A stretch of 64,000 bases of DNA from Sporopachydermia quercuum (Eukaryota; Ascomycota; Sporopachydermiomycetes; Sporopachydermiales; Sporopachydermiaceae), in contig BCGN01000003.1 of NCBI GenBank assembly GCA_001599295.1, positions 1,279,148 to 1,343,147 of the forward strand, given 5' to 3'. Numbering within the stretch: position 1 is the first letter of the stretch; the number at the start of each line of letters is the position of its first letter. Of the stretch, positions 42,210 to 52,062 are shown in pieces. Position numbers and translations under genes: made by a program. Under the pieces are notes generated by a model. That model worked only from the letters and a program-made list of their open reading frames with translations, did no database searches and had not been told where the DNA came from.

Positions 42210-42282
42210 TGCCTCGAGCCGGAGTCGAACCGACGATCTTAACATTACTAGTGTTACGCCTTACCAACTTGGCCATCAAGGC
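42210..42282 (-). tRNA. tRNA-Thr (AGT)
   Basis: 73 nt on the minus strand, intronless. The acceptor stem GCCTTGA pairs with TCGAGGC, with discriminator A. The anticodon stem TAACA/TGTTA flanks the loop CTAGTAA, anticodon AGT. The T arm is GTCGG-TTCGACT-CCGGC, containing a B box. A run of T on the transcribed side (A run at 42191-42207) is the Pol III terminator. Confidence 0.96.
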
Positions 42283-43401: not shown

Positions 43402-43474
43402 TGCCTCGAGCCGGAGTCGAACCGACGATCTTAACATTACTAGTGTTACGCCTTACCAACTTGGCCATCAAGGC
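43402..43474 (-). tRNA. tRNA-Thr (AGT), second copy
   Basis: Identical in all 73 nt to the gene at 42210-42282, with the same anticodon AGT. The flanks differ apart from a shared TTCGA just outside the 5' end and an A-rich 3' flank on the plus strand that gives the T-run terminator. One ambiguous base lies at 43398 in that flank. Confidence 0.96.
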
Positions 43475-46326: not shown

Positions 46327-48240
46327 CTATTTCTGTTTCAAAACCCTTTTGGGATCTACACCTTTCCTCCTAAGTTTCTTTGTTAGATTCTTCGTGATAA
46401 TCTCACTATCTTCGTCTTCATTAAAGTCAGCGAAATCACCATTGATCAGACTTTCTTCTTCATTTCTTGCTAATCCTTCCTTTTCTTTGGCTCCAGCCTT
46501 AGAATTGTCATGCGGACTTGATTCAATCTTCTTGAATTTAGCGACGTAGAAACCATCGACATTATATGTATGAGGATAATAACGTCTCGTTAATTTTAAT
46601 GATGGATGAAAATGTTTACCTCGAAAGCTAGTGAAACCTTCTTTACCAATTTCTAAACCAGTGTCTACCAACTTAACATTAGGTCTTTTCCTTAAAGCAT
46701 AATCAACAACAGCTTCATCTTCATCTACAGTCACTGAACATGTGGAGTACACGATATAACCACCAGTAGGAGAATCGGCATCAACTGAGTCAATCGCAGA
46801 TAACAGCAGTTGCTTTTGAAGATGGGGCAATTGAATGAAATCCTTTTCAGTTCTTGACACTTTAACACTCTCATCCTTTGAAATAACACCAGTACCTGAA
46901 CAAGGAGCATCTAATAATACCCTATCAAATCCACCAATAACTTTAGGAAACTCTCTTGCATCATAATTACATACAATAGTATTATTACAACCCAATCGAT
47001 GAATATTAGCAATAAGGGACTTGGTACGAGCTTTGTTAGCATCATTAGCGAATACACAACCAGTATTTTTCATTAATGCTGACAAATAAGTAGTCTTACC
47101 ACCGGGAGCAGCAGCCATATCTAACACTCTTTCATTTTCTTGTGGAGCTAAAGCCATAACAGGAAGAAAAGATGATGCAGCCTGTAAAATATAATAACCA
47201 GCAAGATATTCTGGAGTAGCACCAATTGGAACTTGAGAATCAAACACTTGTAAACCGACTTTAGTCCATGGACCAATTGGTTGTAAATTAACACCTCTAT
47301 TAATTAACATTTGTGCTAAGTCACGTCTTCTAGTCTTTAATGTATTTGCTCTTATCGTAACAGGACGAGCGATCTCGTTTGCTTCAAAGAATTCAATTGC
47401 TTCTGAAGGTGAGAACAATTCGAATAACTTTTGAGCTAAGAATGGTGTATATCCAAAGTATTTACAAATATCTCTAATCAGTTGCTCAGTATACTCTGTT
47501 CTACTTCTGCCTTCTTCTGCTAAGCTCTTGAAATCTTCTAGAACACGAACAATTTCAAGCATTCGGGTTCTAATCATCGTAACATCTTCATTTTCTTCTG
47601 CATCATCAGCATTCTCCGGTAAAATAACAGCTCGTGGTTCTTGTTGATTGAGTAATTCTTCTTCAGCTTCTTCTTCCATTTCTTGTTGTGCCAGATCCAG
47701 TTTTCTCGACAACGCTTCCATATTAGCTGCATTTAACATATCTTCATCTTCGTCGTCATCACTGAACATTGGTTTCTCTTGATCATCGTCAGAATCATAG
47801 AAATCTTTGTTATCCTCATCATCGTCATCATCATCACTACCAATACCTGATAAATCCAATTCATCATCTTCTAAATCCTCCAGACCCTCAACCTCATCGT
47901 CGTTATCACTATCATCAAACAGGCTTAATTTCTCCTTTTCTAAATGTTTCAAGTCCTCTTCATCTAAATCCTCAGCTGGATAGGAAACATTATCTTCCAG
48001 CTCCTCCTCTTCAACATTTCTTTGTTTCTTGGACTTCTTAAGTTTGGTAGAACCTGATTCTGATGTTTTAACCTTTTTCGCTTTAGTGCTGCGTTCTGAT
48101 TTACCATTGGACTCTAATTTCGACGAAACTTTCCTCTTCTTTGATTCTTTATCATTGCTATCTCTCTTTCCTTTGTAGATTTTATTGAATTCATCTAAAC
48201 TAGGAGGAACTCCTTGTTTACCTTTAGCTTTACGACCCAT
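46327..48240 (-). CDS. NOP2: Nop2, 25S rRNA m5C methyltransferase
   Basis: A single-exon gene of 637 residues (S. cerevisiae 618). It starts MGRKAKGKQGVPPSLDEFNKIYKGKR. Residues 30-75 are Lys/Ser-rich and basic, and 76-170 are strongly acidic, both typical of a nucleolar protein. The SAM-dependent RsmB/Nop2 fold follows: RVLDMAAAPGGKTTYLSALM (residues 371-390), the PC motif DAPCSGTG with Cys447, and the TC motif YSTCSVTVDEDEA with catalytic Cys501. The C-terminus is basic. Nop2 methylates C2870 of 25S rRNA and is needed for 60S ribosome assembly. Its upstream region holds RRPE-like sites (separate entry). Confidence 0.97.
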   Translation of the reverse strand: MGRKAKGKQGVPPSLDEFNKIYKGKRDSNDKESKKRKVSSKLESNGKSERSTKAKKVKTSESGSTKLKKSKKQRNVEEEELEDNVSYPAEDLDEEDLKHLEKEKLSLFDDSDNDDEVEGLEDLEDDELDLSGIGSDDDDDDEDNKDFYDSDDDQEKPMFSDDDEDEDMLNAANMEALSRKLDLAQQEMEEEAEEELLNQQEPRAVILPENADDAEENEDVTMIRTRMLEIVRVLEDFKSLAEEGRSRTEYTEQLIRDICKYFGYTPFLAQKLFELFSPSEAIEFFEANEIARPVTIRANTLKTRRRDLAQMLINRGVNLQPIGPWTKVGLQVFDSQVPIGATPEYLAGYYILQAASSFLPVMALAPQENERVLDMAAAPGGKTTYLSALMKNTGCVFANDANKARTKSLIANIHRLGCNNTIVCNYDAREFPKVIGGFDRVLLDAPCSGTGVISKDESVKVSRTEKDFIQLPHLQKQLLLSAIDSVDADSPTGGYIVYSTCSVTVDEDEAVVDYALRKRPNVKLVDTGLEIGKEGFTSFRGKHFHPSLKLTRRYYPHTYNVDGFYVAKFKKIESSPHDNSKAGAKEKEGLARNEEESLINGDFADFNEDEDSEIITKNLTKKLRRKGVDPKRVLKQK

Positions 48241-48771
48241 AATGAATACAAAACCTCAACTTCCTAACTAATCTATACTTTGATGCACATTTGCTAGAAG
48301 TATTCTTTAACTAAGAGTTCAACTAATAGTATTGATAGTGTCTACAAAGTACAGATACACTCGCCATATAACAAAAATTTTCCTTATAAAACAAAATTTT
48401 CATTTTATTAATTTTTCACTTGAAGCGATCAATTGAGAGGAGTCATGAAGTATTTAAGGGGTGCACTCTCAAGATGAAAATAAATTGTTACCCGGAGTTT
48501 GTGTGGGACGATTTAAGGTTTAGATAATCATTAAATGATAGGAGTTAATGAGAAGGCTGAGAAATCGAGAAGAGGATGAGGCGAGTTGTACATATGCTTT
48601 TATAACATATAGATTGGTAGAGATAGATCTCATACTATTAATATATCCATTATTAGTATCTTACTGGAAATTATTACTGTTCAATTGATTACGAAGATGA
48701 ATATCTGATCAACTGGAGAGCAGGTGGAGGTGTATTCAATTTAGATTTATTATTCTGTCATTGCATTCTCT
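48241..48771. other. NOP2 promoter / RAD27 3' region
   Basis: 530 bp between tandem minus-strand genes. No ORF. It contains the RRPE-like motifs listed separately and a GGATGAGGCGAG stretch near 48572 that loosely resembles the PAC element. Confidence 0.4.
48374..48402 (-). promoter_or_regulatory. RRPE-like elements of the NOP2 promoter
   Basis: On the minus strand, two AAAATTTT cores (48400-48393 and 48381-48374) lie about 135-160 bp upstream of the NOP2 start. The first is in the context TGAAAATTTT. The RRPE motif (TGAAAAATTTT type) marks ribosome-biogenesis genes in budding yeasts. NOP2 is such a gene, so the match is meaningful, but the sequence is AT-rich and chance is possible. Confidence 0.4.
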
Positions 48772-50101
48772 TCATCTTCTTTTACGGAATCCACCAGGCT
48801 TTGTAACTTTATTACTTTTTTTCGTTTCAGCAGCTTTTTTCTTTTGCTTTGCTAATTGTTCAGCAGTCTTAGGAACTACTTTGAAAAAGCCATCAAGACG
48901 ACCTTGAGGAGCGGTTTTGAGGCTTTTCTGTAACCTTGTTATACCAGAACGAATTCTATCTTCTGAAAAACCTTTCTCCTTGACCAAATAATTAATCAGT
49001 CCATCAACATCAGGCTCAGTCCATTTCAATTCTATCGTTTCTGGATCTAGAACATCAGGATTCTTGAATAGCTCTCTTGCTTGCGCGTAGGGCCAATCTT
49101 CAGGAATTTTGTATTTTGACTTTGGTTCACTTTCAATCATCTCTACGATTTTTTCAATTGACTTGTGTTCTTTGATCAGTTTATAAGCGGTGGCAGGACC
49201 AACGCCTCTTATTGTTTCACAGTAATCACATCCTAAGAGGATACATAAATCAATAAACTCGTCATAAGTCAATTCAAGTCCTTGAATAACCTTCTCATAA
49301 GATATCTCATCTACAGGCATCTTTCTTTGTTCTGAGAACGTCAAATGTCTCAACAGATATGGTGGTTTATAACAAAGTGTATCCATATCCTCTGAAGCAG
49401 CAGCATATACTTTTCCAGCTTTAGCTAAAACAGCTGCTTGAGCTTCAGCTTCGCATGGTGCTTCAACGTAAGGTATACCCATTAATTTAAGTAGTTTCTT
49501 AGCCTCCTCATTTTGTTCCTTAGTTACTTTCACTTTCCTTTTCTCTAGTTTAGTAATCTCCTCCACTGTGCCTGTTTCCTGAATTTCCTCTGCCTTTTTA
49601 GTAGCTTCCTCTCTTCTCTCTAATCTTTTAGCTAGTTCACCTGATTTCATTACCGGTGGTTTACCGTCAAATATATAACATGGCTTTATACCATTGTCAA
49701 TCATTCTCAGTGTTCTATAAAACATTCCCATCAAATGTGATGTAGTCTCTCCAGCGTCATTTAACAATTGTTGACCATCCTGTTGTCTGACTGCAATCAG
49801 AAATTGATACAATGCCATAGATCTATTATAAAATACTAGTTAGTATTTAATTTTTCATATGATACTAAAACATGGGTATACATTCTATCGTAAGGTACTT
49901 ACGCATCCTATCAATCGTTAGTATTTCTTCTATTAATAATCAAAATATCTCTTGTTCTCTCTAACAAACAAAGAAAATATACGAGAATAAAATATATCTT
50001 ACAATTGCAACCTTTCTACCAAAAAAGGTCTTGATCTCAGAGGCTTTGATAGCATAACCTGCATAATCAGCTATAAGCTGATTCAACCCTTTAATACCCA
50101 T
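48772..50101 (-). CDS. RAD27: Rad27/FEN1 flap endonuclease with a 5-nt micro-exon
   Basis: Three minus-strand exons, 50101..50003 (99 nt), 49907..49903 (5 nt, GATGC) and 49822..48772, give 384 residues (S. cerevisiae 382). Exon 1 encodes [15 protein letters not shown]...FFGRKVAI; the micro-exon plus one base of exon 3 encodes Asp34-Ala35; exon 3 resumes [16 protein letters not shown]. Intron 1 (95 nt) has donor GTAAGA, branch TACTAAC (49923-49917) and acceptor TAG; intron 2 (80 nt) has donor GTAAGT, branch TACTAAC (49845-49839) and acceptor TAG. Active-site motifs [21 protein letters not shown] and GCDYC are present, and the PIP box QGRLDGFF sits near the C-terminus. The nuclease removes 5' flaps in Okazaki-fragment maturation and long-patch repair. 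Confidence 0.97.
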
Positions 50102-52062
50102 CTTGATGACACTAAGCACTGTACTATGTTGGTTCTATTCGTTATACCTGTAGATTTACACCTTCTCAATAATTAAATACAAATACTGAGCGTTATTTAA
50201 CTTTAATGGTTTAGTTTATAATATATAATATAATAACTATCTTTACCTGAATAAAAGAGAAGAATGATTCTCAATATGTATGTATATCTTTTGCGCGTTT
50301 CTTGAACTATAAATCAGAACGCGTTTCATCTCCCCAGACTCGAGCTAAAAAGCGGTAGATTCACCTTTAATCAAACAATTAAAGTGTATCAAATTCAAAC
50401 AAATGATTTAAAAGACTATTACTAAACAAACTCTCAAATCTTGAGAATCAGTGGCCTATTTGAAATAATGTCAAAAGGAATTACGATACACCTTACTGTA
50501 AATCAATGTCCACCTGATGGGAACATTTGAACTATCTACATGATTTGCAGAAGTCACGTACATTAACTAATAGTATAATACAATACAATGAAAACAATAC
50601 ATTTACTCTAAAAAAATTGTCACGAAAGTTTCTTTCCCATATTCACTTTCCCTTTGTGAGAACATTATTCAAGAGAATAACAAGAAAAATGGAAAATATG
50701 TACTCCGTATTCAATCTAGGACAACTGTATCAGTGAAGGACCCATAATAGAAAAGATAACTATAACAAATCAGAAATTGACTGAGACAATTAACAATCTA
50801 CGGGAAACCCGGGCAATTCACTTTCTTTGTCATCCAGCTATTAACTCCATTAAATAGTATTCTTATCTTTTATAAATCTTCCAGTAATAAACACATTTCG
50901 ATACCTATCAAAAATCTTCACTAATGCTTGATGATTGGATTGGATCAAACGGGAAGTGTGTAATGTGTGCCGTGAAACTCACTGTGCATATTACTAGAAA
51001 CAAGATACGAGATACCAACGATATCAATAGCCACATAAAACTCGTTTTCGACTTAACTTTTCAATCAATAAGTCACAACATCTCTCTATTGGGAGAGAGA
51101 GGATTACTCAAACGCTGCAACTTCTATAGTGAAGAAGAATTTATTATTTGCCGTATAAACTAGTAGCTCAACTACATAAAGAATTTGCCATTTTTTCCTT
51201 TTTCTCTTTTTGGCGAAAAGACGGGAGTGGTATTTTAGATAACATAATCATTTATTTTTATTTTATGCAAGATCTCATCGAACATTCTAGTAAACTCGGC
51301 ACTATAAATGAAATTTTGTACGTAAGCAATTGGTGATACCGGGGATATGTAGGAGGTAAGATGTGATAAACACAAAGAATAACAGCCTTTAACAAAATCA
51401 TGAAATACCTGAGAAACGTGAAACCATATATAAGAAGAACATCTGAATAAATAAAATATAAAGTGGCTCATAAATATACTATTCAAGCGATAATAATAGT
51501 ATAGCTAATAATCATCTTGTGACAAATTATTGGTACGGCCAGTATCCTTATGCGTCTAATTGGGGAAGTCTCAAGACAACGGTTTGATAAATGTTTCCTG
51601 CCAAGGCAATATCTTAGTACTAATCAATGTAATGAATTTCGGGTCATAAAATGCTTCTTCGATATTCTTTGTTGATAACAATGAATATATGATAAAAAAA
51701 CAGAAAAGAAAACCAAAAATCTCTTATGGAGAAATTATATTTACTACTCTTCACCATTGCTTTATTCTGAGTTCTATTTTAATCAAGAAAAGAAATAAAA
51801 TTGCTTTAACGCCATAACGATTATACGATTCTTTTCTAATACACAAATCATCCATCTATTGCAAAGATTTGATAAGAGCACACTACAATAAAGGCAAATG
51901 TGTATATAGTGCAGACTTACGATAGATTCAATTTTCGAGTGCAGGGTTAATAGGAGATTGAAACTAATCAAGAATACCTGCGATAATATCTTTTGCAAAA
52001 GAAGCTTTACTATTAGATCAGCTTTACAGAAGAGTTAAAATAACCCAAGTCGTCAACTAGAC
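50102..52062. other. Long divergent region RAD27 / OPI10
   Basis: Nearly 2 kb, the longest gene-free stretch here. Frames at 50527-50736 and 50924-51163 (+) have start codons but no similarity and no coding signature I can defend. No tRNA or tandem repeat seen. It holds both promoters. Confidence 0.35.

Follow-up and report, generated by a model that had tools for sequence, protein, structure and literature searches.

The window analysed here is a stretch of 64,000 nt (C3:1279148-1343147) in a genome of 16.39 Mb assembled in 12 contigs. On its minus strand, examined over 48200-50700, lies RAD27, whose predicted coding sequence, read and spliced in a script, falls into three exons; the second consists of the 5 nt GATGC. 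Exon 1 (50101-50003, 99 nt) ends in phase 0 with ...FFGRKVAI and aligned with residues 1-33 of a solved FEN1. It is followed by intron 1 (50002-49908, 95 nt; GTAAGA...TACTAAC...GATAG), with the donor at 50002, the TAG ending at 49908 and the TACTAAC branch site at 49923-49917, leaving 10 nt between the branch A and the 3' splice site. The micro-exon (49907-49903, 5 nt) supplies the Asp34 codon and bases 1 and 2 of the codon for Ala35. Intron 2 (49902-49823, 80 nt; GTAAGT...TACTAAC...AATAG) has its donor at 49902, its TAG ending at 49823 and its TACTAAC at 49845-49839, 17 nt from branch A to 3' splice site. Exon 3 (49822-48772) opens with A TCT ATG, the third base of Ala35 and then SMALYQF, and runs to the stop codon, encoding the rest of the XPG_N domain as well as XPG_I. 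The joined frame is 384 aa long. Every RAD27 feature given in a preliminary description of this DNA was found base for base. GATGC is internal, shorter than the 15-nt limit for ultra-short micro-exons, and sits between an AG and a GT with a complete intron on either side. Elsewhere in the window, two tRNA-Thr(AGT) genes lie about 1.1 kb apart (42210-42282 and 43402-43474, both on the minus strand).

We enumerated all one- and two-intron GT-AG models of RAD27 with introns of at least 30 nt, counting a model as open when its frame continued past 350 aa. Only one of the 36 open models produced VAI-DA-SM, and it was the one predicted in the preliminary description. None of the three open single-intron models contained DASM and none of the 32 other open two-intron models contained VAIDASM, so all were discarded; two of these share GATGC but end exon 1 elsewhere (KDASM and FFDASM), and thereby lose or add residues. 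Joining exon 1 directly to exon 3 shifts the frame, as had been argued before, and the computed product of skipping GATGC stops after 54 aa. Retention of intron 1 was computed to give a stop after 46 aa, and retention of intron 2 a stop after 35 aa.

To gauge chance, the 180-nt RAD27 stretch was shuffled 40,000 times per run with dinucleotides preserved and the splice ends held. The pattern YAG-GAYGC-GT appeared anywhere in 3 of 40,000 shuffles, and in none once an upstream TACTAAC was required; none had it with a GTAAGT or GTATGT donor either. In a second run, likewise, no shuffle contained a micro-exon of 2-14 nt that kept the frame and had both branch sites (0/40,000). These results bear on the idea that the junction is different or the assembly wrong, such that VAIDASM arises in some other way, through one intron only, through non-canonical splicing or through an erroneous base. 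Annotation often fails at such places, according to PMC8831610, and scattered N letters do occur elsewhere in this genome (L042, L020, L045 and L061). No N lies within 49823-50002, only the one GT-AG model works, and a base error would not make two complete adjoining introns that none of the shuffles reproduced; we therefore consider this explanation extremely improbable.

Protein comparisons provided evidence that stands independently of the shuffle test. The exon-3 open reading frame alone matched XPG_N at 75 bits over profile positions 35-101, lacking positions 1-34, and adding exons 1 and 2 raised the match of the spliced protein to 121 bits over positions 1-101 of 101. XPG_I was matched at 103.6 bits (1-89 of 89). 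Against the solved FEN1 chain 8yjh_D, which we take to be human, the spliced protein scored 467 bits over query residues 1-382, with no gap over residues 1-48, that is, across the micro-exon. This gapless alignment bore out the earlier placement of Asp34, which aligned together with FDGKPP, EAEA, EDMD and DYC. By both domain content and end-to-end alignment, the predicted 384-aa product is a FEN1/RAD27 flap endonuclease. Asp34 of FEN1 is presumably a metal ligand. The passages of PMC5490271 consulted on this point do not mention Asp34 by name.

Among the 120 RAD27 relatives listed, 115 carried the motif [RK][VIL]A[IV]DA[SY]; of the five others, three records start past the motif, one has Leu for Ser36 and one has His for Asp34. 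The RAD27/FEN1 protein records of other budding yeasts resemble the gene described here both in overall protein and in the VAIDAS motif. RAD27 of S. cerevisiae differs from it in having no known intron. The best yeast record for the RAD27 protein among the matches listed was from Nadsonia (75% over 95% of the query), while the top score went to an insect record that is doubled (60%). With NOP2 as query, Scheffersomyces stipitis scored best among the matches listed (69% over 99%), and a few records reached 78% over 76-78%. In a RAD27 tree drawn with a midpoint root, the window fell, weakly supported, close to Nadsonia, Yarrowia and Lipomyces. The host is probably an early-branching budding yeast, to judge from these sequence relationships.

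Several FEN1 records begin at the Met that directly follows VAIDAS, namely P0060 (W. anomalus), P0107 (Lipomyces japonicus) and P0037. These starts suggest that an intron also lies directly upstream of that Met in FEN1 of W. anomalus and Lipomyces japonicus, and given such records RAD27 intron 2 may be old. A search for exon-1 read-through open reading frames in RAD27 relatives gave no candidate. The FEN1 record of Babjeviella inositovora (P0008) reads VAIHASM, with His at the counterpart of Asp34; as this replacement should kill the enzyme, it may reflect an intron at this position that the gene model handles wrongly. Three flap endonuclease records (P0069, P0114 and P0116) carry the name 'Elongation of fatty acids protein 2'; the names were probably confused, for yeast ELO2 was formerly also called FEN1.

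We then scanned the genome with four patterns composed of a branch site, an acceptor, a short gap and a donor. Matches numbered 16, 5, 16 and 21, against 16, 10, 57 and 32 with the reversed-pattern controls, so the counts prove nothing by themselves, not being above the controls. The set described below rests on case-by-case homology, judged by eye and partly against known yeast sequences, and the gene names in it, beyond those printed by the tools, are presumptive. The four scans contributed 16, 5, 9 new and 20 new matches, or 50 distinct ones, which comprised 13 micro-exons of ≤15 nt, four exons of 18-23 nt and 33 matches that were not accepted. Including RAD27, the genome accordingly appears to hold at least 13 micro-exons of 1-15 nt, each placed precisely where the product of a conserved gene calls for them. 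The preliminary description had called exons this short very rare in budding yeasts, which does not hold for this genome.

Alignment to a solved structure without a gap at the tiny exon was obtained for TUB2, encoding beta-tubulin ('G', 1 nt, L023:1525, plus strand), ARP3 (ACAA, 4 nt, L022:1507-1510, minus strand), COX9 (6 nt, L009:1519-1524), TIF11/eIF1A (9 nt, L016:1517-1525) and a FAL1/eIF4A-III-like gene (11 nt, L011:1518-1528). A Pfam family match spanned the exon in an MDP1-type phosphatase gene ('CT', 2 nt, L013:1507-1508, minus strand), a YGR210C-like GTPase gene (8 nt, L042:1520-1527), VPS13 (9 nt, L017:1507-1515), a FAH-family gene (13 nt, L019:1507-1519), ACT1 (14 nt, L025:1519-1532) and PRE3 (15 nt, L027:1521-1535). 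The PHO85 micro-exon (9 nt, L045:1507-1515) is partly supported, by a family match and a known yeast sequence, because residue 8, whose codon belongs to the micro-exon, is the first that the kinase match covers.

In TUB2, introns of 132 and 259 nt surround the single G (TTAG|G|GTATGT), which is needed for CGQAGNQV, and a single Gly codon contains both splice points. An error in one base might in principle look like a 1-nt exon, but this is unlikely given the series of TACTAAC, TTAG, G and GTATGT found there. In the MDP1-type gene, introns of 100 and 573 nt enclose the CT needed for DYTLWPHYCDC, and skipping it brings a stop after 42 aa. In the VVMDNGTG motif of ARP3, ACAA encodes Asp-Asn. Of the 13 micro-exons, 8 have lengths that three does not divide; in these, skipping breaks the frame and the frame itself thus forces inclusion. 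Skipping keeps the frame in the other five, COX9, VPS13, TIF11, PHO85 and PRE3 (6, 9, 9, 9 and 15 nt), for which the case for inclusion accordingly comes from length and similarity only.

The four slightly longer exons were recognised by eye in RUB1 (18 nt, plus a further 30-nt exon; L061), CCT5 (18 nt; L064), DID2 (20 nt; L059) and TUM1 (23 nt; L020), with a Pfam comparison made for RUB1 (ubiquitin, 87.8 bits). The 33 matches not accepted by eye, L051, L052, L053, L060, L062 and L063 among them, included ordinary exons (for example L014, L015, L026, L029, L046, L050, L055 and L058), a likely decoy (L008) and the element at L010; the remainder lacked a recognisable gene on both sides. At L010:1501-1536 a 13-nt exon-like element between two donor/branch sets lies upstream of an open reading frame that by eye resembles the carbamoyl-phosphate synthase small subunit; it is possibly a micro-exon in a 5' UTR.

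The 26 introns that flank the micro-exons ranged from 80 to 691 nt. Their donors were GTAAGT in 15 cases and GTATGT in 8, with GTAAGA, GTACGT and GTAAGG once each; their acceptors were TAG (20), CAG (4) and AAG (2). A branch site was recognised in 23 of the 24 flanking introns of 12 genes, the MDP1-type gene standing outside this comparison, and in those 23 the branch A lay 10-23 nt from the acceptor. The distance was 10-12 nt in nine of the 23, so the 10 nt of RAD27 intron 1 is normal. RAD27 is therefore typical of the set except for its GTAAGA donor, the only one among the 26. Branch sites of the first introns were chosen by the scan patterns themselves, making the second introns the less biased view. 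Exact TACTAAC occurred in only 5 of the 13 second introns, from which we roughly extrapolate that the true number of micro-exons could be about three times that found.

The preliminary description had suggested that splicing could act as an on/off switch for the RAD27 nuclease; inclusion would then be regulated, with skipping turning FEN1 off under some condition. The skipping and retention products are indeed all truncated, the intron 1 donor is of a less usual kind, and a fungal precedent exists in the glucose-dependent 20-nt micro-exon of Trichoderma virens Xlr2 (PMC11121469). The GTAAGA donor leaves room for some regulation of RAD27 splicing. Yet we found no sequence mark of regulation: both introns carry full signals, and the RNA fold of the region is ordinary (z -0.38), for which reason RNA structure was also rejected as a driver of the micro-exon. 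Skipping GATGC would only make a truncated frame. A second FEN1 gene was likewise not found among the six XPG_N places in the genome; two of these are the RAD27 exons, and the other four were judged by eye to encode an EXO1-like protein (L002), a RAD2-like one (L001) and two of more distant relationship (L004 and L006). At least 12 other genes, including those for tubulin, actin, ARP3, eIF1A, FAL1 and a proteasome subunit, share the arrangement, and loss of frame would be destructive there too. The proposal of an on/off switch thus found no support and appears quite improbable; judged from the sequence, the micro-exons look like a routine feature of this genome and not like a special device of RAD27.

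We also weighed nested removal of the kind known from stwintrons, in which one intron would interrupt a splice signal of its neighbour, and the excision of one complex intron in two steps would leave GATGC behind. Stwintrons are documented in filamentous Ascomycota (PMC9024468 and PMC12403724). In RAD27, by contrast, both introns are intact in donor, branch site and acceptor, neither interrupts a signal of the other, and with either removed the other stays complete. Removal of intron 1, for example, gives ATT-GATGC|GTAAGT, so that donor 2 is whole both before and after. We therefore rejected this explanation, which is very unlikely in view of the uninterrupted signals.

We consider it very probable that RAD27 is a three-exon gene in which GATGC is included almost constantly through sequential intron definition, as one of at least 13 micro-exons in the genome. 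The flanking introns are ordinary small budding-yeast introns, each with its own donor, TACTAAC and TAG, and would leave one after the other by intron definition, so that recognition of the exon would not be needed. Once either had gone, GATGC would simply close exon 1 or open exon 3, and it would be expected in essentially every productive RAD27 mRNA. That core genes have micro-exons of lengths not divisible by three also argues for routine inclusion by intron-by-intron splicing. We infer this order of splicing and the constitutive inclusion from the arrangement of the signals.

The most likely origin would be retention of neighbouring introns at the 5' ends of genes while introns further 3' were lost, a scenario inferred from position only. 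A coding start was chosen in 12 of the 13 genes, and there the distance from it to the micro-exon is at most about 100 nt; if the MDP1-type gene began at an in-frame ATG further upstream, its distance would be about 150 nt. This 5' position fits retention of closely spaced ancestral introns, and fungal ancestors are described as intron-rich in PMC8476143. We also considered tandem intron duplication and dismissed it, because the neighbouring introns showed no clear likeness in the 12 pairs compared (the MDP1 pair lay outside the comparison). Introns 1 and 2 of RAD27 gave a local score of 20, which a fraction of 0.185 of 200 shuffles equalled or exceeded, and the lowest such fraction among the 12 pairs was 0.05 (TIF11).

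The closest fungal case is the 1-nt exon of Fusarium CYP621A, called the first for a fungal gene, which is likewise an inferred ultra-short exon inside a conserved motif and without which the frame is lost (PMC12940212). That exon belongs to one P450 gene of filamentous fungi and is backed by 18 transcript reads (PMC12940212), whereas the predicted exon of RAD27, a gene for DNA repair in what is probably a budding yeast, has 5 nt and is one of at least 13 in its genome. In plants, Arabidopsis APC11 has a 1-nt exon (PMC4674806) and 2,398 micro-exons of ≤15 nt were reported in 10 species (PMC8831610). As in RAD27, these are ultra-short and essential to the frame; they are often absent from annotation, and the one in APC11 is constitutive (PMC4674806, PMC8831610). 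The present case differs in lying in a budding yeast with UACUAAC-type introns, and budding yeasts have been described as having very few introns (PMC4202332).

The 4-bp micro-exon of human MPC1 resembles that of RAD27 in that its length is not a multiple of three, and it is included constitutively (PMC9929638). The title of that paper on a vertebrate gene stresses exon-definitive regions (PMC9929638), whereas in RAD27 the intron signals alone look sufficient. Xlr2 of Trichoderma virens is comparable as a fungal gene whose protein is altered when a micro-exon is absent; its 20-nt exon was shown by RNA-seq to be regulated by glucose (PMC11121469), and RAD27 bears no sign of such regulation. According to the same article, experimental tests of fungal micro-exons had been limited to S. 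pombe. Among the papers listed in the literature searched, with subscription papers mostly outside its scope, none had an exon this short in Saccharomycotina. The RAD27 exon therefore joins a known ultra-short kind, and the surprise lies in such a set in one budding-yeast genome of the UACUAAC type.

Most work on micro-exons concerns animals and plants, in which exon definition is believed to hamper the splicing of very short exons. The reach of intron definition by itself could be tested cleanly by nature's own example, a small yeast genome whose branch sites are near consensus and whose core genes have exons of 1, 2, 4, 5 and 6 nt. Automatic gene models would miss Asp34 of FEN1, the N-terminus of ARP3 and the frame of beta-tubulin, and genes with such exons would be wrongly called broken or truncated. 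A broader reading, which we regard as speculative and rather unlikely, is that ultra-short exons could be common throughout a lineage, with a few tens per genome at the 5' ends of core genes such as those for tubulin, actin, ARP3, eIF1A, FAL1 and RAD27. Such exons, down to 1-2 bases, would be spliced by intron definition in a fixed order, and the pair of introns at the start of each gene might then serve as a gate that checks or controls productive expression.
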